NCBI GenBank assembly: GCA_937951345.1
Contig: CALFCF010000092.1
Location: 1 to 62,775 of the forward strand
From: an uncultured Granulosicoccaceae bacterium
GTDB taxonomy: Bacteria; Pseudomonadota; Gammaproteobacteria; Granulosicoccales; Granulosicoccaceae
Direction of reading: 5' to 3'
DNA: 62,775 nucleotides
Shown here: positions 89 through 12,791 of the stretch, piece after piece
How the letters are laid out: the number at the start of each line of letters is the position of its first letter
Position numbering within the stretch: position 1 is the first letter of the stretch
The notes under the pieces: generated by a model
The model's database searches: none
The model's input: the letters and a program-made list of their open reading frames with translations, nothing else
What the model was told of the DNA's origin: nothing
Translations under genes and position numbers: made by a program

Positions 89-694
89 ATGCAAACACTG
101 ACAAAAAGACAACAGCAAATTCTCGATATGATCCGTGATCATATTGATGAAACCGGTGTCCCACCCACACGCGCAGACATCTGTGACTATTTTAATTTTC
201 GCTCACCCACTGCTGCCGATGATCATTTGAAAGCGCTTGCACGCAAACAAGTTATTGAGTTGATGCCTGGAACCTCACGTGGCATACGTCTGCTCGGCGC
301 CCATCAGGAAAACGCTCTTCCTGTTGTTGGCTTTGTTGCAGCAGGTGCGCCGATCATGGCTGAGGAACATATAGAAGATTATTTCGCAATTGATCCGGCT
401 CTTTTTTATCCACGAGCCGACTATCTGTTACGTGTACGCGGTGACAGCATGATTAACGTCGGTATTTTTGATAATGATTTACTGGCAGTCCACTCAACCA
501 CACGCGTTCACAATAATCAGATAGTCGTTGCACGTATTGAGGATGAGGTTACGGTTAAACGTTTTCGTCAGCGTGGCAATATTGTCACCTTGTTTCCGGA
601 AAATGATGACTATGAACCAATCAGGGTGGATTTACGTGAAAAGGAATTTTCCATCGAAGGTATATATACCGGCGTACTTCGTTTCGACGAATAA
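89..694 (+). CDS. lexA: LexA repressor, SOS regulator
   Basis: LexA represses DNA-damage genes and cleaves itself when RecA filaments form on single-stranded DNA. The 201 aa length is close to the 202 aa of E. coli. Residues 1-65 form the winged-helix DNA-binding domain (starts MQTLTKRQQQ). The cleavage site is Ala85-Gly86 in GFVAAGAP. The S24-type catalytic pair is Ser120 (RGDSM) and Lys157 (VTVKRF), one residue offset from E. coli. A perfect SOS box lies upstream at 1-16. imuA and imuB follow on the same strand, the lexA-imuA-imuB arrangement known from many Proteobacteria, though here a 142-bp repeat element separates lexA from imuA. All key residues are intact. Confidence 0.96.
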   Translation: MQTLTKRQQQILDMIRDHIDETGVPPTRADICDYFNFRSPTAADDHLKALARKQVIELMPGTSRGIRLLGAHQENALPVVGFVAAGAPIMAEEHIEDYFAIDPALFYPRADYLLRVRGDSMINVGIFDNDLLAVHSTTRVHNNQIVVARIEDEVTVKRFRQRGNIVTLFPENDDYEPIRVDLREKEFSIEGIYTGVLRFDE

Positions 695-705
695 CACCAG
701 AACCA

Positions 706-847
706 ATCTCAAAATTGATCGGGGCACGCAAACTTGCATATCACCATGGCGTTGCGTATTGCACCAGGGGGACACCGACTCTACTCGCTCAGCACACGCT
801 TTGTTGCGATGAACAATAGCCAGGCGCTCCCCACATAATTTCAAGAT
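706..847. repeat. Short inverted-repeat (MITE-like) element, copy A
   Basis: The lexA-imuA gap begins with ATCTCAAAATTGATCGGGG and ends with AATTTCAAGAT at 837-847, whose reverse complement matches the first 11 bases with two mismatches. A related element with the same ends and partly similar interior lies in opposite orientation at 16607-16720. There is no coding capacity. It is probably a non-autonomous mobile or structural intergenic repeat. The alignment was made by eye. Confidence 0.5.
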
Positions 848-901
848 AAGTTCTACCTACGCCAACAATAGCTGATTACCCACCGGTTTTTATTTATCAG
901 T

Positions 902-1600
902 ATGGATCCTGCACTGACAACGTTGCTCAAGACGGAGCGCGGCTTATGGCAAGGGAGAAGCCAATATTACACACGCAAAACATTATCAACGGGCTTTAAC
1001 GCCCTCGATCGTAAATTGCCGGCTGGTGGTTGGAGTATCGGAACGTTAACCGAGCTGCTCGTCGAACAAAATGGCATCGGCGAGCTCAGCCTGTTATTAC
1101 CGGCACTTGCAACAGTTACTGCTGGCAAACAATGGGGAGCATTTATCAATCCACCTTATACTCCCTATGCACCGGCATTAGCCTGTGCCGGCGTGGATCT
1201 GGATTATTTGCTGATCGTCAATACCAATAACTGCGCAGATACCTTCTGGAGTAGCGAGCAACTATTGCGTAACGGCTCTTTTCATGCCGTAGTCAGCTGG
1301 ATCAATGCTTCGCGTGGGAAACAATACACTAAACAATTACGACGCTTACAGCTGGCAGCGGAACAATCGAACGCTCTAGCAGTTATCTATCAACATGAAC
1401 GTTACAGCACACAACACTCACCAGCCGCATTACGCATCAAGCTTCAACCTGCAACCAACAGCAAGGCCTGCTTTGAACAAAAAATGGATGGCCTTATGCT
1501 TGATGTGATCAAGGTACGCGGTGGCACAGAAACCCGGCTATTCATACCGGCTCCAGCCTTTGACAAACCGCAAGGCATTGAATGGCCTGTTGTACGTTAG
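902..1600 (+). CDS. imuA: ImuA, SOS mutasome accessory protein
   Basis: ImuA is a RecA/SulA-related accessory protein that works with ImuB and DnaE2 (ImuC) in damage-induced translesion synthesis. At 232 aa it has the usual ImuA length. The N-terminal part has the family pattern LSTGFNALDRKLPAGGWSIG, followed by TELLVEQNGIGEL. The Walker A lysine expected in RecA is missing there, as is common in ImuA. It lies 207 bases after lexA and 27 bases before imuB. Expression is probably driven from the LexA-controlled promoter upstream of lexA, since I saw no second SOS box in the gap. Identification rests on the family pattern plus the lexA/imuB context. Confidence 0.87.
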   Translation: MDPALTTLLKTERGLWQGRSQYYTRKTLSTGFNALDRKLPAGGWSIGTLTELLVEQNGIGELSLLLPALATVTAGKQWGAFINPPYTPYAPALACAGVDLDYLLIVNTNNCADTFWSSEQLLRNGSFHAVVSWINASRGKQYTKQLRRLQLAAEQSNALAVIYQHERYSTQHSPAALRIKLQPATNSKACFEQKMDGLMLDVIKVRGGTETRLFIPAPAFDKPQGIEWPVVR

Positions 1601-1627
1601 TCGTTACCGGGGCAAAACCTGAGTCTC

Positions 1628-3205
1628 ATGCAAACAAGAAAACAGGAGCGGTGGGCCGCCGTATTGCTGCCAGAACTTGCACTCGAGCGTTTTGAGCGGT
1701 TTAAAAACCAAAAACAATTTGAAGAAACACCACCGGCAAATTACTCAACCTGCTCAGATGCTCAAAACATTATCGCTCAGGCAACAGGCTCACACTCCTC
1801 AAACAGTCTGTTAAGCACTACCTGCAAACAGGAGCCTCTTGCTGTTGTTCAACACACCGGCAACAAACGCTTAATCGTCAACTGCAATGAAATAGCACAC
1901 GATATCGGTGTCCGATCCGGACTCACACTTAACAATGCATATGCCATCTGCCCTTCACTGTTGACTATCGATTACGACGAAACAAAGCAAAGACAACATA
2001 TTGAATCCCTCTGCCTGTGGGCAACCAACTACTCTTCCCGGGTAGCCCCTGTGATGCCGGATACAATCCTCATTGAAATTGGCGCCAGCCTTCTTTTGTT
2101 TGGTGGTATTGATCGCTTGATACAAAAAATTCAAGGCGATTTAAATGACCAGGGAATTACTGCAGCTATTGGGATAGCACCAACACCTGAAGCTGCACTA
2201 CTGTTATCACAGGTTTATTATCAGTCAGGTATAAACCCTGGCTACGCTGACACAAAAGACCAGATTGCATGTCTGCTATCCGATATACCTGTTAGTGCAT
2301 TGCCACTGGATGAATTCACTCGCAAAGGACTTCGACAATCCGGCATCAAGCAATGCCGACAGTTATTTGATCTGCCAGCTACAGCACTGAGCAGGCGTTT
2401 CGGCCCGGCATGTAGCGAGTTGATTTATAAACTTCTTGGTCGTATTCCGAGCCACTATCCTGAATTCCAACTGCCGGAGACCTTTTGTAGAGGCATCGAT
2501 TTACCACTTGAAGCCCCTGACACATCAGTGCTGCAGTTCCCAATTAATCGATTGATGCATGCACTCTGCGGTTATTTACGAGCGACTGAATCAGGTATCA
2601 GAACATTCGATATATCACTATTGCATGATAAAAAAAGTGCAACACGAGTGACAATAAGGTTTATCGAAGCCAATAACAATCATCAGCACTTATTACGCGT
2701 AGCAACAGAAAAACTTGCGACACTTACATTGCAAGCCCCGGTAACTGCACTGCAACTTAAAGCCGTTGAAGTTGGTCCTGTTGGCCAAAGCAATATGCAG
2801 CTATTCGATCAAAATACCAACCGATCCGAAACAGTCGAGCAGGCTATTGACGTTCTTGGTGCGAGAATCGGGCACGAACAGCTATACAAACCAAAGCTCG
2901 CTCAGGATCACCGACCGGAACACGCTTGGGACACGACCCGACAACCAAACCCTGTAGACAAAACGACTCATACGCGCCCTCTATGGCTACTACCGAAGCC
3001 ACAAGCTGCGCCTGCCTCAATTGTCATTAAGAGTCAGGCAGAGCGTATTGAATATGGATGGTGGGATAGTAACGACGTACGTCGTGACTACTATATTGCA
3101 CAAGACGCCGACGGGCGGTGGCTTTGGGTATTCAAAGAACGGCGTAGCCAACAGGTTACTAACAACGAGTCAGAAAAATTCATGATACATGGATTATTTG
3201 CCTGA
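1628..3205 (+). CDS. imuB: ImuB, inactive Y-family polymerase scaffold
   Basis: ImuB is a Y-family polymerase homologue that has lost catalysis and recruits DnaE2 and the beta clamp to lesions. The 525 aa protein starts with the typical RKQERWAAVLLPELALERF. A palm/fingers-like region follows (NNAYAICPSLLTIDYD; LIEIGASLLLFGG), in which the acidic metal-binding residues of active DinB/UmuC are not seen. A little-finger-like domain comes next. QLFDLP and MQLFDQ are possible clamp-binding peptides. The C-terminus has the conserved WWDSNDVRRDYYIAQDADG and ends in a FMIHGLFA-type tail typical of the family. An unusual Ser/Thr/Gln-rich insert lies near residues 30-75. Confidence 0.94.
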   Translation: MQTRKQERWAAVLLPELALERFERFKNQKQFEETPPANYSTCSDAQNIIAQATGSHSSNSLLSTTCKQEPLAVVQHTGNKRLIVNCNEIAHDIGVRSGLTLNNAYAICPSLLTIDYDETKQRQHIESLCLWATNYSSRVAPVMPDTILIEIGASLLLFGGIDRLIQKIQGDLNDQGITAAIGIAPTPEAALLLSQVYYQSGINPGYADTKDQIACLLSDIPVSALPLDEFTRKGLRQSGIKQCRQLFDLPATALSRRFGPACSELIYKLLGRIPSHYPEFQLPETFCRGIDLPLEAPDTSVLQFPINRLMHALCGYLRATESGIRTFDISLLHDKKSATRVTIRFIEANNNHQHLLRVATEKLATLTLQAPVTALQLKAVEVGPVGQSNMQLFDQNTNRSETVEQAIDVLGARIGHEQLYKPKLAQDHRPEHAWDTTRQPNPVDKTTHTRPLWLLPKPQAAPASIVIKSQAERIEYGWWDSNDVRRDYYIAQDADGRWLWVFKERRSQQVTNNESEKFMIHGLFA

Positions 3206-5601: not shown

Positions 5602-6056
5602 TGACAGCAATCACAACCCCCCACCGGGCCGCTGCCACGAATTCAAGCGCCAATCACGTGCACAATAAGTTATCCACAGATTCCTCTGCTAAAGCGTTCG
5701 TCGATTAACAGCCGCTGGCAAATTTGTTTCTATCTAAATTGTTAGGCAACGGCAAGTTATCCACAAGCTAAATGTTGCATGGTCGTGGCGAGAGGCTCCA
5801 CCTGTAACATCATGAACAGTCCGGGCAGCACATGCGAGCCTCAATCCATTTTTCTAATCAAGTTTATCCACAACAGAAAAACCGTCAGGATTAAAAAACG
5901 GTACGCTCTTATTGTTCACTGCAATTGATAATCGATATCCAACTTAGGGTTTTCGGGCGTTGTGTACTGCTAACCGGATCTTTAATGTTTTGCATTAACG
6001 GACGAGTGTAATTATCATGTTCGGAGACCATCACATTTTGATTCTCCTGACAGCTG
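5602..6056. other. Intergenic region with three perfect DnaA boxes
   Basis: The perfect DnaA box TTATCCACA occurs three times, at 5670-5678, 5757-5765 and 5864-5872, all in the same orientation. Two sit in a longer shared AAGTTATCCACA and the third in AAGTTTATCCACA. The 455-base region holds no gene and has an A/T-rich stretch near 5880-5950. GATC sites are sparse and there is no dnaA, dnaN, mnmG or parAB in the window, so a standard oriC is not proven. It could be an origin, a DnaA-titrating (datA-like) locus, or DnaA-dependent control of the downstream ompA-type operon. Confidence 0.6.
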
Positions 6057-6776
6057 ATGCAAGAACATGGGTTGCCCGCCGGTCCGGTAGTAGAAGCTTT
6101 CGGATCTAGCAAACCCGGCCCTATTCCGTGGGTCATAGCGGCGTTGACTCTGCTCTGTCTGTCCTTCACTATCCCCAACCAGTTAGCAGCGATACAAAAC
6201 GACGTGCAATTCGGCGTGCGCTCGATACTGGCGACTTCAGGTACCAGCCAGATTGACGTAGCTATTGACGGCCGTGATCTCACTCTTAACGGCGCTATCG
6301 ATCCAAAATTTGAGCGAGACTGGTTCGTTGAATCTCTAGCCGAACTCCGTCAGGTCCGAGTCGTCACTGATGAACTGGAAGAATACAGCCCCCGTGCCGA
6401 AGCCCGCGAAATGCGCGTTAAATTTCGGGAAGCTGTGCAGAAAATCAACACAGCATCAATTTTATTTGAACCCAGCAGCGCAGACTTCAGTAGCGGCAGC
6501 CAATTGGCACTCGATGAATTGACGTCGTTGCTCAAAGCGCATCCAGAACGACGGGTAAAAATCGCTGGGCATACTGACACGTCAGGTAACAAGCAGAAGA
6601 ATCTTGAACTAAGCCGTGACCGTGCACGCGCCGTCTCAGGCTACCTGATTTCCCGTGGAATACCTCGCGAGCAATTACTGGCACAGGGTTATGGTTCAAG
6701 CCAGCCGATAGCCACAAACGAGACTGAACAGGGTCGTACTCGCAATCGGCGCATCGAAGTCATCGTCATGAATTAA
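6057..6776 (+). CDS. BON-OmpA domain envelope protein
   Basis: A 239 aa envelope protein. A hydrophobic segment (PIPWVIAALTLLCLSF, about residues 23-42) serves as signal anchor. A BON-like fold follows (IDVAIDGRDLTLNGAI, about 60-105). The C-terminal OmpA peptidoglycan-binding domain (about 120-239) has the pattern AGHTDTSGNKQKNLELSRDR...GYGSSQP...NRRIEVIV. OmpA domains bind diaminopimelate in the cell wall, so this probably links membrane and peptidoglycan. No strong ribosome site precedes the ATG. The next gene follows after 17 bases, suggesting one operon with the coiled-coil protein. The DnaA-box cluster lies directly upstream. Confidence 0.85.
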   Translation: MQEHGLPAGPVVEAFGSSKPGPIPWVIAALTLLCLSFTIPNQLAAIQNDVQFGVRSILATSGTSQIDVAIDGRDLTLNGAIDPKFERDWFVESLAELRQVRVVTDELEEYSPRAEAREMRVKFREAVQKINTASILFEPSSADFSSGSQLALDELTSLLKAHPERRVKIAGHTDTSGNKQKNLELSRDRARAVSGYLISRGIPREQLLAQGYGSSQPIATNETEQGRTRNRRIEVIVMN

Positions 6777-6793
6777 ATGAGACGAGGTTTAAC

Positions 6794-8038
6794 GTGACAT
6801 ATCTGGTATCACAAATTGTATTAAGTCTTCTGCTCGCCGCTATTGGAGGTGCTGCGATCGGCTGGATCATTCATGGCCACAAGGCACATCAGCGAGAAAG
6901 GGGTTTACGTACAGCACTTGAACGTCAAGCAGCAGCTACGGCTCATGCGCAGCAAGAGCGTCAAATGATCGCTGACGATTTCGACGATATGAAATTAGGG
7001 CTGGAAAGCAAGCTAACTGAAATTCAATTCGAAAATCGTCAAATTCCCAAGTTGCAGGAAAATCTTGAGAAAAGTCAGCAGATCGTTCAACAAATGATCA
7101 AAAAACACGACTCCGAGATAAACGAGCTGGCAAGTCACAACAATGACTTACATGGCCAGATAGAACGTCTGAAACTGCGGATACAGGAGGTAACGCATGC
7201 TGAGAATAAAACAGACGACACCACCAAGAGCTCAACCGGCACGAAAATCAGCAAAAACGAACCAAGCACTGAAGAACGCTCGTCGAAAGAACAACAAAAA
7301 CCATTAAAAAGCACAAATCCCATTGAACAGAGTAACAATGTAACCGACGTACTCGCGCAGAATGAGCCAGACACCGCCAAAGTAACCGGTGCATGGGGCA
7401 GTAAAACAAAGGAGAGCGATACGATGAGTAAGCCCTCATCGAGTAACGCTTCAGAAACACAAGCCAGTACCCAAACACGCGATTCCGATCTATCGCCCGA
7501 TTCCAGCTTCAATCACTACCACGAGAACTTAACCACCGAAACGCAGGTGCAGAATGAATTGTTCGCACTTGAGCATGAAATCGACGACATGCGTCATGGT
7601 GAAAACGAGTTATTTGGCGCACTCGAGGATGACAATATCGCAGCACCCCTGGATATCGTCGATGAAAGTCAAAAACCTTCTCCACTATTGGCGAAAAGCG
7701 GTGTAACCGATAGCGGTAACAATACAAGCAAGGATCAAAACGGTTCATTCGACAAATTTGCTGCCAAACACGCACACAACGAGATCTCACCTGACGACTT
7801 AAAAAATATACATGGCATTGGACCTGTTATCGAACAATCACTCAATGACATGGGAATAAACAATTACCGTCAAATCGCATCATTGACTCGCAAAGAAATA
7901 GAAGAAATTGCGGATATTCTAAAAATATTTCCAGGCAGAATTGAAAGAGACAATTGGGTGGGCAGCGCAAAAAAATTATTGGACGACGGCAATCCTAGTG
8001 AAAACAAGCATGCTGCACTAGAAACGGAAAACGCCTGA
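6794..8038 (+). CDS. Inner-membrane coiled-coil protein with C-terminal HhH domain (short paralogue)
   Basis: A 414 aa protein of unknown function. The GTG start is preceded by GACGAGG at good spacing. A single membrane helix (about residues 2-26, SQIVLSLLLAAIGGAAIGW) is followed by basic residues, which places the rest in the cytoplasm. Residues 30-130 are helical coiled coil. Residues 130-320 are a low-complexity acidic and polar linker. Residues 336-400 form a helix-hairpin-helix domain (LKNIHGIGPVIEQSLNDMGI, then FPGRIERDNWVGSAKKLL). HhH domains of this type usually contact DNA or mediate assembly. The next gene has the same plan and nearly the same HhH domain. The role is inferred only. 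Confidence 0.8.
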   Translation: MTYLVSQIVLSLLLAAIGGAAIGWIIHGHKAHQRERGLRTALERQAAATAHAQQERQMIADDFDDMKLGLESKLTEIQFENRQIPKLQENLEKSQQIVQQMIKKHDSEINELASHNNDLHGQIERLKLRIQEVTHAENKTDDTTKSSTGTKISKNEPSTEERSSKEQQKPLKSTNPIEQSNNVTDVLAQNEPDTAKVTGAWGSKTKESDTMSKPSSSNASETQASTQTRDSDLSPDSSFNHYHENLTTETQVQNELFALEHEIDDMRHGENELFGALEDDNIAAPLDIVDESQKPSPLLAKSGVTDSGNNTSKDQNGSFDKFAAKHAHNEISPDDLKNIHGIGPVIEQSLNDMGINNYRQIASLTRKEIEEIADILKIFPGRIERDNWVGSAKKLLDDGNPSENKHAALETENA

Positions 8039-8405
8039 GAACAGGTAAATCAGCAATTTGCACATAAAAGGTAAAAACCATTAACAACACGATCGATTAG
8101 AAAATAAAAAACCTGACGAATCGACAAAAAAAATCCAGTGCAATAAGCACCAGAAGCTAACTAACAAGTCACCAATATGACTTAAAACCAATGCGCGACA
8201 ATGGATTACCCAGACGCCAATTATTCCGGAATAACAAACAAAAAAAGATGGCTGGGAATAATCCACAAACGATTACGAAAATGATTTTTGTATGCCAAAA
8301 GATGTTTTGCGGCAAGAAAATAGCGTCTGCACGTCCAGGCATTGCTGAAGACATAAGTGTGCTCACTCGCTTAACTAGCATCGAAGCGATTGCTTTGGAG
8401 GGATA
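8039..8405. other. Intergenic region between the two coiled-coil/HhH genes
   Basis: This 367-base A-rich stretch has no supported gene; a 71-codon frame at 8191-8406 lacks family features. It contains the perfect 14-bp palindrome TTATTCCGGAATAA (8221-8234) and TAATCCACA (8259-8267), one base away from a perfect DnaA box. The giant gene therefore probably has its own promoter. Confidence 0.4.
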
Positions 8406-11400
8406 ATGAACATTATCGAGTTAGCCGGGCACCAGATTACCACCGCTCTGTCACTGCTCACACCAACAGGTATGTTGGCAACAATGGGATTGGCAATTCT
8501 CGGGTTGGCATGTGCGTCTATAGGATGGATATTAAGCGAAATTGGCCACCACACCAGATCCAACAACTCTGACAATACAGCGACAAACGATATCCCCTCC
8601 CTACCAGACTTACGCACCAACTCAAACACGCCAAACACGCAAGCTAGATCAACCACCCTACAGGGCGACCATGCAGGTTTAGTCAACCGCTTGGATGCTT
8701 CGCAAGTCATCGATCTGGACGACACATCTTCGCTACAGGAATCAACTTCATTCCTGAATGCCACTATAGCCGGCACTACACGAACTCTGCGATCACTACA
8801 CAAATCTCGAAACACCCAGAAACCTCGCGAGTACGAGCAATATCGACAACTGCAAATCGATCTTCGCAGCACAAAGTACAAACTTGAAACAAAAGAAGCC
8901 GAGCTGAAAGAGTTCAGAAATCGCGCAACCAAAGAACTCAAATCTGCAAACCTTAAAATAGAAGAACTTGGCAATTCTCAAAGAGCGCATAGAAGCAGCC
9001 ACGCTCAGATTGCAAAGCTTACAGAAACTAATAAACAATTAGCCTCATCACTAAGAAAAGCAGAAGAGCAAATTAATTCTCACAACGAACAACTCAATGC
9101 CAGGTCGGAAACGCAAGTAAAAGAGCGACAGGCATTAAGCAACAAAATACAACATGAACAGAACAAACTCTCAGAACTTGAGGCTAGAAACAACGACCTC
9201 GAACTACACATAACCGAGCAGCAAGAACACATAAAAGACCTGCAACAGGCAAAAATTGACGCAGACAGTCTTAAAGAAGAACAAAGTCAGCGTCAGTCAC
9301 AGCTGGCTGCGGAAAGAAATGCTAGCGTTGAGAAACTAAATCAGGAACTCAAACAGCTTCAAATCAAATACAGCGAGCATTTGCAGAATTCCGGAAAACT
9401 AAAGACACAGATCAACGAATCATACGATCGTACAAATTCACTCGAAAAAGAGCTTATAAGTTCAAAAAAGAATATTTCAAAATACGAAGCACAAATCGAA
9501 GCGCTTAAAAATACTGAAATCTCTCTGAACAAAAAACTTTCTGACTCGGAGAAAAGCACAAATGAGACGCTGTCGTCAAAGCAAAATGAAATTGAGAAAC
9601 TTAGTAAATCTCTGCATACAAACGAGCAAGCAATTGCAGAGATGGAACAGAAGCGCCAAACCTTCCGCGAAGAAACAAGTCGCGAGATAGCCACACTCAG
9701 ATCTAAATTAGCTGAAAGCAAAAAACACGAGTTGACCAATCAAGAGCTATCTCAGCAGGTTAGTCAGCTTCAAGAGAAGCTTGCAGCCACAAATATTCAG
9801 CAACAGAGAATACAGGACAACAACGCCAAAATTGCACAACTAACCAGTGTAAATGACAAAAATACAAAAGAGTTAAAAGAACTAAAAGCCGCTCAGCAGC
9901 AAAAAGACGCCAAATTAGACGAACTACAAACTCAGTTATCAAGTAAACAGAAGGAAATTGAGAGTAATTTAGTCTCGCTCAACAATCTAAAAACAAGGAT
10001 TGACAAATCCGAAGCTAAAAACAATGAACTTCTAGAGAACACAAAGGAGATAGAGCAATTTAAGCGTGCTGAACGCCATAATCAGGAAAAGCTAGAAACA
10101 CTCCTACAAGATCTGGAGCAATCCAACAACCGAGCGAATGAATCCGAGTCAAAAAATAAACAAGCACAAACACTTCTCCAAGTCAGCAATCAAGAACTAT
10201 CAAAGCTTGAACAACAATTAAAAGCAAAAGACCAACGAGTCGATCAGCTGCAAACAAAAACCGCAGCCATGATTGCCGAAATCGAAAGCTACAAATCAAA
10301 TCAGATTGACTCCAAACAGTTATTGGAAAGTAAAGACGCGCAGGTCAATGCTTTACAAGCTGATAACGAAAATCTCAATTCCAGAATTGATAACGCTGTA
10401 CATGAGAAAGGTGTTTTAGAGAAAAAACTTGACGATTCCAGAGCCGAATTGAACCTTCAGACGCGAGAAATTGAAAAGCAGGCAAAGATTTCGGCAGAAC
10501 TAAAGAAGTCGCACAATCAAGAATTACAGGCAATTGCAACAAAATATGCAGAGCAGACAACGCAAGAAACTACCATTTTAAATGACAAGCTGGCCACCGC
10601 ACTTAAACAAGCCGATAGATATCAGCAAGAACTTGACGCACAAACAATCTCATACAAACAACTGGAAGGCCAACTTAGCAAAGCAGAACAGGAAAAAAAG
10701 AGACTCGAAGATAAGCATAATATTGAATCAAAACAAAACGAATCATTTAGAAAGCAAATAGAAGATGCGAGGCATCAAGAGCGACAACTTAAAGAAAAAA
10801 TTGCAAACTATAAATTGGAAAATGACGCAACAAGTCTGAAGTATTCGCAAAAATCGACCGAACTGGAATCGATCACTCAAACACTTGAATCGGTACGTGC
10901 AAATCAAAAAACCCTTGTTGAGAAAGAGGCGGTTCGTTTAACTGCACTTCTTGAAGAAGCTGAACTTTCAAAAACAACCCTATCAAAAGAAAAATCAACG
11001 CTTGAGCATCAATTGGAAAAGACCTCTAAAGATTACGATAAAGCCAAAAGTATCCATACAAACAACATTGCCAAATTTGAATCTGAGCTAAGCAAACTAC
11101 GCGAAGACCTCAACTTATCGCAACAAAACAACTCTGAACTGCGTGAAAAGCGCTCTGAGATAGAAAAGAATATACAGGCCAAGGATGTCTACGTCAGTAA
11201 CATAGAGACAGACTACAAAAAGCAAATTGCAGCAATACAATCAAAACTTAAAGACAGCGAAATACGCTTAAACGCAGAAGTTGAAAAGAATAAAAACAGC
11301 ATTTCAGAAAAAAATGCCCTTGAAGCGCAACTAAAACAGCAATCAGATTCATTAAACACCCTGAAGGCAACCATTGCTGAGAGAGACAGTGCCATTACTC

Positions 11401-12791
11401 AGGCTCGCAAGTCAAAGGATGAACTGGATAAGGTTACACAGTTACATAAGCAACTCTTAGAAGAATCCGCAATTGCTTCCAAAGCGTTGGATAAAAGTGG
11501 CAATGCAAACCAACAGCTAGAAAAACGGATTGCAGTACTGGAATCAGAAAAAGCAAAGTCAGAAAAACTCGCTAGTGATATACAGGCACAAATAGATGAA
11601 AAAGAGCAAAGCTTCGATGCCTCGGCCAAAGCAAATGCAAAGAAATTAGATGAATTAAGCAAAAGAATTGACGTGCTTACAAAAGAAAAGAACCTCTCTG
11701 ACACTAAACTTTCTGAATTACACAAAACACTTGTTGAACGGGACGAAACCATTAAAACCAAAACTCGCGAAAATGAAAAATATTCCTCGCTAAAAGCTGA
11801 TGTTGCTAAAAGGCAAGCGGATATCGAGCAACTCCATCAAAAGATCAGCCACCTCTCTGGTTTAGAAGGCAAATTAATTGAACAGGATAAGGTAATCCAG
11901 CAATTAAGACATGATTTGAAATCAGCAAATGACGGCCTCGCCGAGAAGACCAAAAAAGTCGAAACATTAGGAAGAGCACTTAGTGATGCCAGTAAAAATA
12001 TTACTCAGCGCATCACCGACGAAAATTCCACTACTGACGGTAGTGACGAATCCCTGAACTCCGTTGAACTAACAAGACTTGAAGCTCAGGTCACAAGCTT
12101 AAAAACCGAACGTGATCTTGGCCTTGAAAGGGTGAGAGAATTAAGCACTGAACTCAAATCCATTAAGGAGAAGCAATCAGAGCTCCAGGACTTAAAAGCT
12201 GGCGCCACTGAAGCAAAGCACACCAAACGAGAAGTAGATTTATTGCGATCTAGAATAAGCTCACAAGAAACTGATTTACGCAGTAAAAAACTTACCATAG
12301 ATCAATTGCGCAGGGAACTTGCAAGGATGGGCGTACAGCGTGTAAGCACATCATCTGATACCACTGTTCTTGAACCATTAACTAGACAAAATAGCAGACA
12401 AAAAACAGCAGCATCCGGTACCAACAGCAGCAACGCAAGTGGTTCAACCGCTGTTTTAGAGACTCCAACAAAAAAATCAAAGGCCAGCAAAACAAAGAAG
12501 ATTGCAGCGAAAAAGAATACAAGGGAAGCAACGGAATCGCAAAAAACTAGCATTAGCTCCGATACACAAGAACATGATGACCTGAAGAAAGTCAACGGCA
12601 TCGGACCCAAAATCGAAAAACAGTTACGCGAGCTAGGTATTACCAGTTATCGACAAATCGCAGAGTTCACTCCGGAAACAATAGAGCAGATTTCAAATGA
12701 ATTGGCGTTTCCAGGACGAATTGAGCGTGATGGCTGGGTCAGTGAAGCGAAGAAACTATACCTTGCTAAACACCAATCACGCGACCAGTGA
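8406..12791 (+). CDS. Giant inner-membrane coiled-coil protein with basic linker and C-terminal HhH domain
   Basis: A 1,461 aa protein preceded by a strong GGAGGG site. One membrane helix (about residues 22-43) is followed by a short linker. Residues 141-1323 contain no proline, cysteine or tryptophan and are rich in Glu, Lys, Gln, Ser and Leu in heptad-like order; fully helical, this would be a rod of about 175 nm. A Lys/Ala-rich, histone-tail-like linker (about 1,350-1,370, with KKSKASKTKKIAAKK) leads to the HhH domain at 1393-1461 (LKKVNGIGPKIEKQLRELGI...FPGRIERDGWVSEAKKL), a close match to the upstream paralogue. The architecture resembles SMC- or golgin-like tethers, but there is no ATPase. 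I infer a membrane-to-nucleoid tether or scaffold; the function is unknown. Confidence 0.82.
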   Translation: MNIIELAGHQITTALSLLTPTGMLATMGLAILGLACASIGWILSEIGHHTRSNNSDNTATNDIPSLPDLRTNSNTPNTQARSTTLQGDHAGLVNRLDASQVIDLDDTSSLQESTSFLNATIAGTTRTLRSLHKSRNTQKPREYEQYRQLQIDLRSTKYKLETKEAELKEFRNRATKELKSANLKIEELGNSQRAHRSSHAQIAKLTETNKQLASSLRKAEEQINSHNEQLNARSETQVKERQALSNKIQHEQNKLSELEARNNDLELHITEQQEHIKDLQQAKIDADSLKEEQSQRQSQLAAERNASVEKLNQELKQLQIKYSEHLQNSGKLKTQINESYDRTNSLEKELISSKKNISKYEAQIEALKNTEISLNKKLSDSEKSTNETLSSKQNEIEKLSKSLHTNEQAIAEMEQKRQTFREETSREIATLRSKLAESKKHELTNQELSQQVSQLQEKLAATNIQQQRIQDNNAKIAQLTSVNDKNTKELKELKAAQQQKDAKLDELQTQLSSKQKEIESNLVSLNNLKTRIDKSEAKNNELLENTKEIEQFKRAERHNQEKLETLLQDLEQSNNRANESESKNKQAQTLLQVSNQELSKLEQQLKAKDQRVDQLQTKTAAMIAEIESYKSNQIDSKQLLESKDAQVNALQADNENLNSRIDNAVHEKGVLEKKLDDSRAELNLQTREIEKQAKISAELKKSHNQELQAIATKYAEQTTQETTILNDKLATALKQADRYQQELDAQTISYKQLEGQLSKAEQEKKRLEDKHNIESKQNESFRKQIEDARHQERQLKEKIANYKLENDATSLKYSQKSTELESITQTLESVRANQKTLVEKEAVRLTALLEEAELSKTTLSKEKSTLEHQLEKTSKDYDKAKSIHTNNIAKFESELSKLREDLNLSQQNNSELREKRSEIEKNIQAKDVYVSNIETDYKKQIAAIQSKLKDSEIRLNAEVEKNKNSISEKNALEAQLKQQSDSLNTLKATIAERDSAITQARKSKDELDKVTQLHKQLLEESAIASKALDKSGNANQQLEKRIAVLESEKAKSEKLASDIQAQIDEKEQSFDASAKANAKKLDELSKRIDVLTKEKNLSDTKLSELHKTLVERDETIKTKTRENEKYSSLKADVAKRQADIEQLHQKISHLSGLEGKLIEQDKVIQQLRHDLKSANDGLAEKTKKVETLGRALSDASKNITQRITDENSTTDGSDESLNSVELTRLEAQVTSLKTERDLGLERVRELSTELKSIKEKQSELQDLKAGATEAKHTKREVDLLRSRISSQETDLRSKKLTIDQLRRELARMGVQRVSTSSDTTVLEPLTRQNSRQKTAASGTNSSNASGSTAVLETPTKKSKASKTKKIAAKKNTREATESQKTSISSDTQEHDDLKKVNGIGPKIEKQLRELGITSYRQIAEFTPETIEQISNELAFPGRIERDGWVSEAKKLYLAKHQSRDQ

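Follow-up and report, generated by a model that had tools for sequence, protein, structure and literature searches.

A conserved OmpA/BON and transmembrane-HhH gene pair, a candidate wall-membrane-nucleoid tether in Granulosicoccaceae and Alphaproteobacteria

The window, by which we mean the whole 62,775-nucleotide stretch of DNA analysed, corresponds to contig C92 in the draft genome (4.49 Mb, 96% complete) of an uncultured Granulosicoccaceae bacterium. Three open reading frames, which we call OMPA, SHORT and GIANT, lie in a row at the positions and with the lengths (239, 414 and 1,461 aa) that an earlier note on this DNA had given them. OMPA is separated from SHORT by 17 bp, and SHORT from GIANT by 367 bp. 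Upstream of OMPA are what we take, from reading the sequences, to be lexA-imuA-imuB-like genes and then a GGDEF/EAL-like gene; downstream of GIANT there is presumably, again by reading, an alpha/beta-hydrolase-like gene followed by an ABC transporter. The lexA-imuA-imuB-like SOS mutagenesis genes span positions 89-3205, and dnaE2 does not directly adjoin them. The features of the locus are as follows.

5670-5872 (starts at 5670, 5757 and 5864), forward strand: three perfect same-strand DnaA boxes (TTATCCACA), intergenic, upstream of OMPA
6057-6776, forward strand: OMPA, a 239-aa ORF with a putative N-terminal TM segment of uncleaved type (about residues 24-43), a BON-like region (about 47-107) and a C-terminal, peptidoglycan-binding OmpA domain (136-231)
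6462-6749, forward strand: OmpA domain (PF00691) of OMPA, residues 136-231, by Pfam (E=1e-23)
6794-8038, forward strand: SHORT, 414 aa, with a TM anchor, a short coiled coil (29-135), a variable linker and a C-terminal PhaH-type HhH domain
6815-6871, forward strand: SHORT TM anchor, with the conserved motif LAxxxGxxxGW and then the positively charged stretch HGHKAHQRER
7793-7978, forward strand: SHORT HhH domain, residues 334-395
8406-12791, forward strand: GIANT, 1,461 aa, with an N-terminal TM segment (SIGWIL), a coiled-coil rod, a Lys-rich linker and a C-terminal HhH domain
8826-12374, forward strand: GIANT coiled-coil rod, residues 141-1323, without Pro, Cys or Trp
12462-12539, forward strand: GIANT Lys/Ala-rich linker (TPTKKSKASKTKKIAAKKNTREATES), residues 1353-1378
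12576-12758, forward strand: GIANT HhH domain, residues 1391-1451 (AlphaFold2 model, pLDDT 84)

OMPA had been described as an OmpA/BON protein. The OmpA part of this description stands in Pfam for the window copy as for all 15 orthologues, but BON stands at the level of the family: Pfam matched it in 11 of the 15 orthologues (best 1.2e-7) and returned no BON match for the window OMPA. The nearest solved protein covering both domains is ArfA/OmpATb (Rv0899, Mycobacterium tuberculosis, PDB 2l26), which aligned across profile positions 65-232 and, like OMPA, holds BON and OmpA in a single protein, although it comes from a different phylum. The N-terminus of OMPA has a hydrophobic segment after a hydrophilic stretch, and inspection of the alignment showed no conserved AxA site. 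ArfA/OmpATb has an N-terminal TM segment, as OMPA probably does, and we know of no HhH partner for it. OMPA scored 64.8 bits against the Pal model TIGR02802, below the cut-off of 125, and its sequence has no lipobox. A single-sequence AlphaFold2 model of OMPA reached a pLDDT of 42 and was set aside.

The TM helix of SHORT, with its LAxxxGxxxGW motif followed by mostly basic residues (R/K), is common to the gammaproteobacterial and alphaproteobacterial partners of OmpA proteins, with or without an HhH domain. Because of the basic residues after the helix, these partners are predicted to lie N-out/C-in, and for SHORT the prediction, drawn from HGHKAHQRER after the TM segment, agrees with the earlier placement of its C-terminus inside the cell. 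The linkers vary widely in net charge, from +16 in the long g3 proteins described below (PKPKAK-type) to -17 in SHORT of the g4 genomes, where most values fall between -7 and -17.

The P/C/W-free run in GIANT, earlier put at about 1,180 residues, is exactly 1,183 residues long (141-1323), with a chance probability of about 10^-37 at the window P+C+W frequency of 7%. Hydrophobicity along this rod has a period of 3.5 residues (5.4, versus 1.00 +/- 0.22 in shuffles), and 37 of 53 segments scored for periodicity exceed the 99th percentile. Since the period is so sharp, these data support a real coiled coil, up to about 176 nm long if continuous, close to the roughly 175 nm estimated earlier. Codon-position GC of GIANT is as in a coding gene, and the same-genus genome G002 retains the ORF with 28% identity across about 870 residues, to its contig end. 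The histone-tail-like linker is real in GIANT but short, at 26 residues (31% Lys, 15% Ala); it does not extend to a general feature, since linkers of SHORT orthologues go down to -17. We rejected an SMC-like identity for GIANT: the NCBIfam SMC match was far below cut-off and reflects merely generic coiled-coil similarity, the rod scoring on SMC models through its heptad pattern. Unlike SMC/Rad50 proteins, GIANT has no ATPase head by Pfam (no SMC_N or other ATPase match at E<=1) and has a membrane anchor and an HhH domain instead.

Other giant proteins were seen elsewhere. Contig C68 of the window's own genome (L066 8420-12466) encodes another one, a 1,348-aa TM coiled-coil protein with HhH and with no OmpA gene beside it. 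The g3 genomes (L070-L076) encode TM coiled-coil proteins of 2,141-2,627 aa with two HhH domains; most of their linkers are very basic, and several of the genes lie near rnhB-dnaE-accA-like genes. A 1,173-aa gene adjoining the g3 giants had the length of an SMC gene; we discarded that assignment, as by our reading of the sequence it begins like DnaE and is flanked by RnhB- and AccA-like genes.

SHORT and GIANT are membrane coiled-coil paralogues ending in nearly the same HhH domain, as the earlier note had claimed: each has one N-terminal TM segment, and their aligned HhH domains are 54% identical. This 60-residue domain (GIGPxxEKxL ... FPGRIERDxWV) is PhaH-type and COG3743-like. It matches the C-terminal part of NCBIfam NF045508 (PhaH; GIANT 1.4e-18, SHORT 7.1e-13); neither protein belongs to full-length PhaH, the best score being 72 bits versus a curated cut-off of 250, with positions 110-231 of 234 matched. 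Two control genomes were matched by the PhaH model, Caulobacter among them, and in one the match scored above the cut-off. We found the same HhH at the C-terminus of NCBIfam PhaH, in extensions of ribosomal proteins L21 and S2, in NuoE tails, and in PDB chains 9wqv (a complex I subunit) and 8yy9 (RC-LH1 protein-O). The window's own genome encodes an L21 with two C-terminal HhH domains (contig C101, L067 8412-9332). At the sequence level the GIGPxxEKxL hairpin is that of an HhH, with matches to HHH_5, IMS_HHH and Y-family polymerase. The GIG hairpin is conserved, as are K15, R48, R51 and K/R59 among other positions, and the mean net charge over 88 copies is -2. Fold neighbours of the GIANT HhH model include BAF, the HhH domains of RadA/Rad51, SAM domains and others, with modest scores; SAM is among the best (Z 6.6, tied with BAF and near the RadA-type entries), and Foldseek matches are weak (best E 0.27). 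These neighbours do not decide between DNA and protein binding.

Two published systems bear on this domain. In Caulobacter, PhaH is reported in a review to bind PHB granules through its N-terminus and DNA non-specifically through its C-terminal HhH, and to place the granules on the nucleoid (PMC13052382, citing Salinas et al. 2023); among proteins with a PhaH-type HhH, such binding is reported for Caulobacter PhaH only. PhaH and the proteins described here share a same-family C-terminal HhH on a linker; the granule-binding N-terminus that lets PhaH tether granules to the nucleoid is replaced in SHORT and GIANT by a TM helix and a coiled coil, and their genes have a gene for a peptidoglycan-binding protein as neighbour. 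In the RC-LH1 of Dinoroseobacter shibae, protein-O (8yy9) is, like SHORT and GIANT, a membrane protein; its flexible tail ends in this HhH, and the linked ends of its traced TM hairpin face the cytoplasm (PMC12079452). The TM part alone was traceable, the C-terminal domain being flexible or lost, and the authors call the function of the HhH obscure (PMC12079452). Protein-O differs in having a TM hairpin within RC-LH1, no reported OmpA partner and a function that its authors call unknown.

Conservation of the genes as neighbours had been set beforehand as one of the points on which a link between wall, membrane and DNA could be refuted. We read the loci in a family set of 36 genomes (the window's own and 35 relatives), and found an OmpA gene directly upstream of a TM-HhH gene, on the same strand, in 31 of the 36, at several unrelated loci; for OMPA and SHORT the order OmpA/BON then TM-HhH is thus conserved, and the pair withstands refutation on this point. 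Full-length OMPA is followed immediately by SHORT in 17 genomes, our own included. In 13 genomes (g3 and g5) the pair is found elsewhere: an OmpA/BON protein that measures about 510-570 aa (one is clipped by a contig end) directly precedes a TM-HhH protein that starts in the style MSWVLWDI...GWLLWRWRR. A third, divergent version, whose HhH is weak, occurs in G015. The five exceptions are G001, G021 and G026, whose assemblies are less than 90% complete, and both g6 genomes; G010 (g6) and G021 retain an OmpA and TM-coiled-coil pair that lacks the HhH. One genome carries about 26 OmpA genes and 6 HhH genes, which puts chance adjacency at about 2% per genome, a figure for related genomes that is not a formal test.

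GIANT behaves differently. Among the family genomes read, it stands beside SHORT within its genus only, G002 being the sole relative with GIANT in that slot (its contig stops inside the gene). GIANT is not in the slot after SHORT in any g4 genome read at that place; as a rule the hydrolase and ABC genes come straight after SHORT, with L060 as an exception, and the g4 contigs L054 and L056 end too early to show what adjoins it. In the g2 genomes the slot holds a 443-aa TM-HhH protein. GIANT is a local, genus-specific addition, and the conserved unit is the OMPA+SHORT pair; the three genes do not form the one unit that had been proposed.

Several related arrangements turned up in the same genomes. 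A further OmpA/BON and TM-coiled-coil pair without HhH occurs in g3 (L111, L113, L114). In g4, an extra TM-coiled-coil gene lies upstream of OMPA (L047 1070-1789, L048 12027-12614, L049 3146-3961, L060 5404-6264 and others), whose product contains the conserved peptide APEPKSYGxGExVTVSVVDQ and in some cases also a degenerate HhH. G002 encodes a 694-aa protein with one TM segment and three tandem HhH domains (L079 7456-9540).

The pair also occurs beyond the family. In an even sample of the phylum, the PhaH-type HhH is present in 56 of 249 genomes, almost all outside the window's class. By crossing HhH with OmpA matches and then reading the places, we found, in eight genomes from four families, a BON-OmpA gene directly followed by a gene whose product combines a TM segment with one to three HhH domains (four in f48, two in f67, one each in f72 and f81), the OmpA of one f48 locus being cut by a contig end; these genomes were classed as alphaproteobacterial by inference from named records. 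Rhizobium lusitanum (NZ_CP050307) has such a pair, of 503 aa and 379 aa, the latter with two HhH domains, which brings the pair to at least nine alphaproteobacterial records in all. In Rhodobacteraceae-type genomes (L093, L186, L187, L190, L191 and Ruegeria TM1040), BON-OmpA lies beside ubiA, and the protein encoded after it is a TM-coiled-coil protein of just 106-109 aa that has no HhH; the TM1040 pair, WP_011536701/WP_011536702, is annotated 'OmpA family protein' / 'hypothetical protein'. A scan of contigs with OMPA as query returned mostly bare OmpA domains and one useful Rhodobacteraceae locus, L093. No clear pair was found in Methylobacterium aquaticum (L198), where a simple ORF caller may have favoured reverse-strand frames, and the viral contigs searched yielded no HhH.

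Our best reading, which we put a little below an even chance, is that OMPA and SHORT form a peptidoglycan-anchored inner-membrane complex that tethers the nucleoid. The N-terminal helix of OMPA would fix it in the inner membrane, with its periplasmic OmpA domain holding peptidoglycan and its BON domain acting as a spacer or lipid-side contact. SHORT, we infer, would lie against OMPA in the membrane by its GxxxGW helix and extend a coiled coil, probably as a dimer, into the cytoplasm, where its PhaH-type HhH would hold DNA non-specifically and so dock the nucleoid at wall-anchored sites; GIANT would be a genus-specific, long-reach form of the DNA-side arm. This reading draws on the adjacency in the family and in the alphaproteobacteria, on a TM motif common across classes, on an HhH of the PhaH/L21/NuoE family that in PhaH is reported to bind DNA (PMC13052382), and on the protein-O tail topology and the RadA/Rad51 HhH and BAF fold neighbours. 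Of the link between wall, membrane and DNA that the earlier note had attributed to all three genes, the conserved OmpA/BON-TM-HhH order, the predicted C-in topology and the HhH family speak in favour, but the trio falls away as its unit.

Against DNA binding, the negative mean charge of the HhH and the acidic linkers of g4 SHORT are unusual in DNA binders, and the Foldseek matches are weak. The domain may be a SAM-like protein-protein or oligomerisation domain, in which case OMPA-SHORT would be a scaffold in the cytoplasm, anchored to the wall and serving, for example, division, polarity or respiratory complexes, without DNA contact. The acidity of domain and linkers, the modelled resemblance to SAM protein-interaction domains, and the fusion of the HhH to ribosomal proteins, to complex I and to protein-O of RC-LH1 all point that way; yet the hairpin is an HhH at the sequence level, and the PhaH domain is reported to bind DNA (PMC13052382), and we consider a scaffold unlikely, if a serious contender.

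Since complex I and ribosomal proteins carry the same HhH, its ligand may be something other than DNA. It might instead bind RNA or ribosomes and hold mRNA, or ribosomes in the act of translation, at membrane sites anchored to the wall as an aid to transertion, as its presence on the two-copy L21 of the window's own genome and on S2 could suggest. A ribosome-borne domain need not bind the ribosome, however, and the sole biochemistry reported in the literature searched is DNA binding (PMC13052382), which leaves ribosome docking improbable. Nor can DNA contact be the core function in every version, since some OmpA partners have no HhH (f65, L103, L111, L113, L114). The OmpA/BON protein and its GW-helix coiled-coil partner could by themselves form a wall-anchored membrane complex, with HhH tails and GIANT as dispensable lineage additions of unrelated roles; the HhH-less Rhodobacteraceae and extra g3 pairs fit such a complex. 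Retention of the HhH on the OmpA-linked partner in those 31 family genomes and in several alphaproteobacterial families, often in two or three copies, argues otherwise, and we rate this alternative as rather improbable too, by a shade less so than ribosome docking.

Returning to a nucleoid tether, we found no paper describing the OmpA/BON and GW-helix pair, with or without HhH, in the literature searched, whose coverage left most subscription journals outside. Each domain is already known, and the pair can be filed as combining two kinds, a PhaH-type nucleoid tether and an ArfA-type BON-OmpA anchor; we think it doubtful that the pair represents a wall-membrane-DNA linkage of a categorically new kind. 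There is an analogy to eukaryotic LINC (SUN-KASH), in which an outside structure, the membrane and chromatin are joined through coiled coils; we claim no homology, and the prokaryotic wall would stand in place of the cytoskeleton. A wider proposal is equally speculative and to be held at well under even chances: that the pair is an undescribed, deeply conserved two-gene machine of Alphaproteobacteria and the window's family linking peptidoglycan, inner membrane and nucleoid, and that the PhaH-type HhH is a general nucleoid-docking tag on respiratory complexes, ribosomal proteins, granules and the tether. Few protein bridges from wall through inner membrane to DNA are defined, and how the nucleoid keeps its position with respect to the envelope has long been asked. 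Complex I, L21, S2, a PHB-granule protein and RC-LH1 protein-O carry the same HhH, whose role the protein-O paper calls obscure (PMC12079452). Both questions lend themselves to direct testing through a pair that could be deleted in culturable rhizobia or Ruegeria.

All three DnaA boxes fall within the 455-bp intergenic region that precedes OMPA. There are 46 boxes of this kind in the genome, and nowhere else do three of them occur within 1 kb; under random placement, a triple this tight has a probability of 8e-5. The boxes are not present upstream of the gene in G002 or in the other orthologues examined, and their link to the OMPA module is unproven. We rejected the cluster as oriC. Because the boxes are not conserved and the window has no GC-skew switch, they may serve local DnaA control or titration rather than mark an origin.
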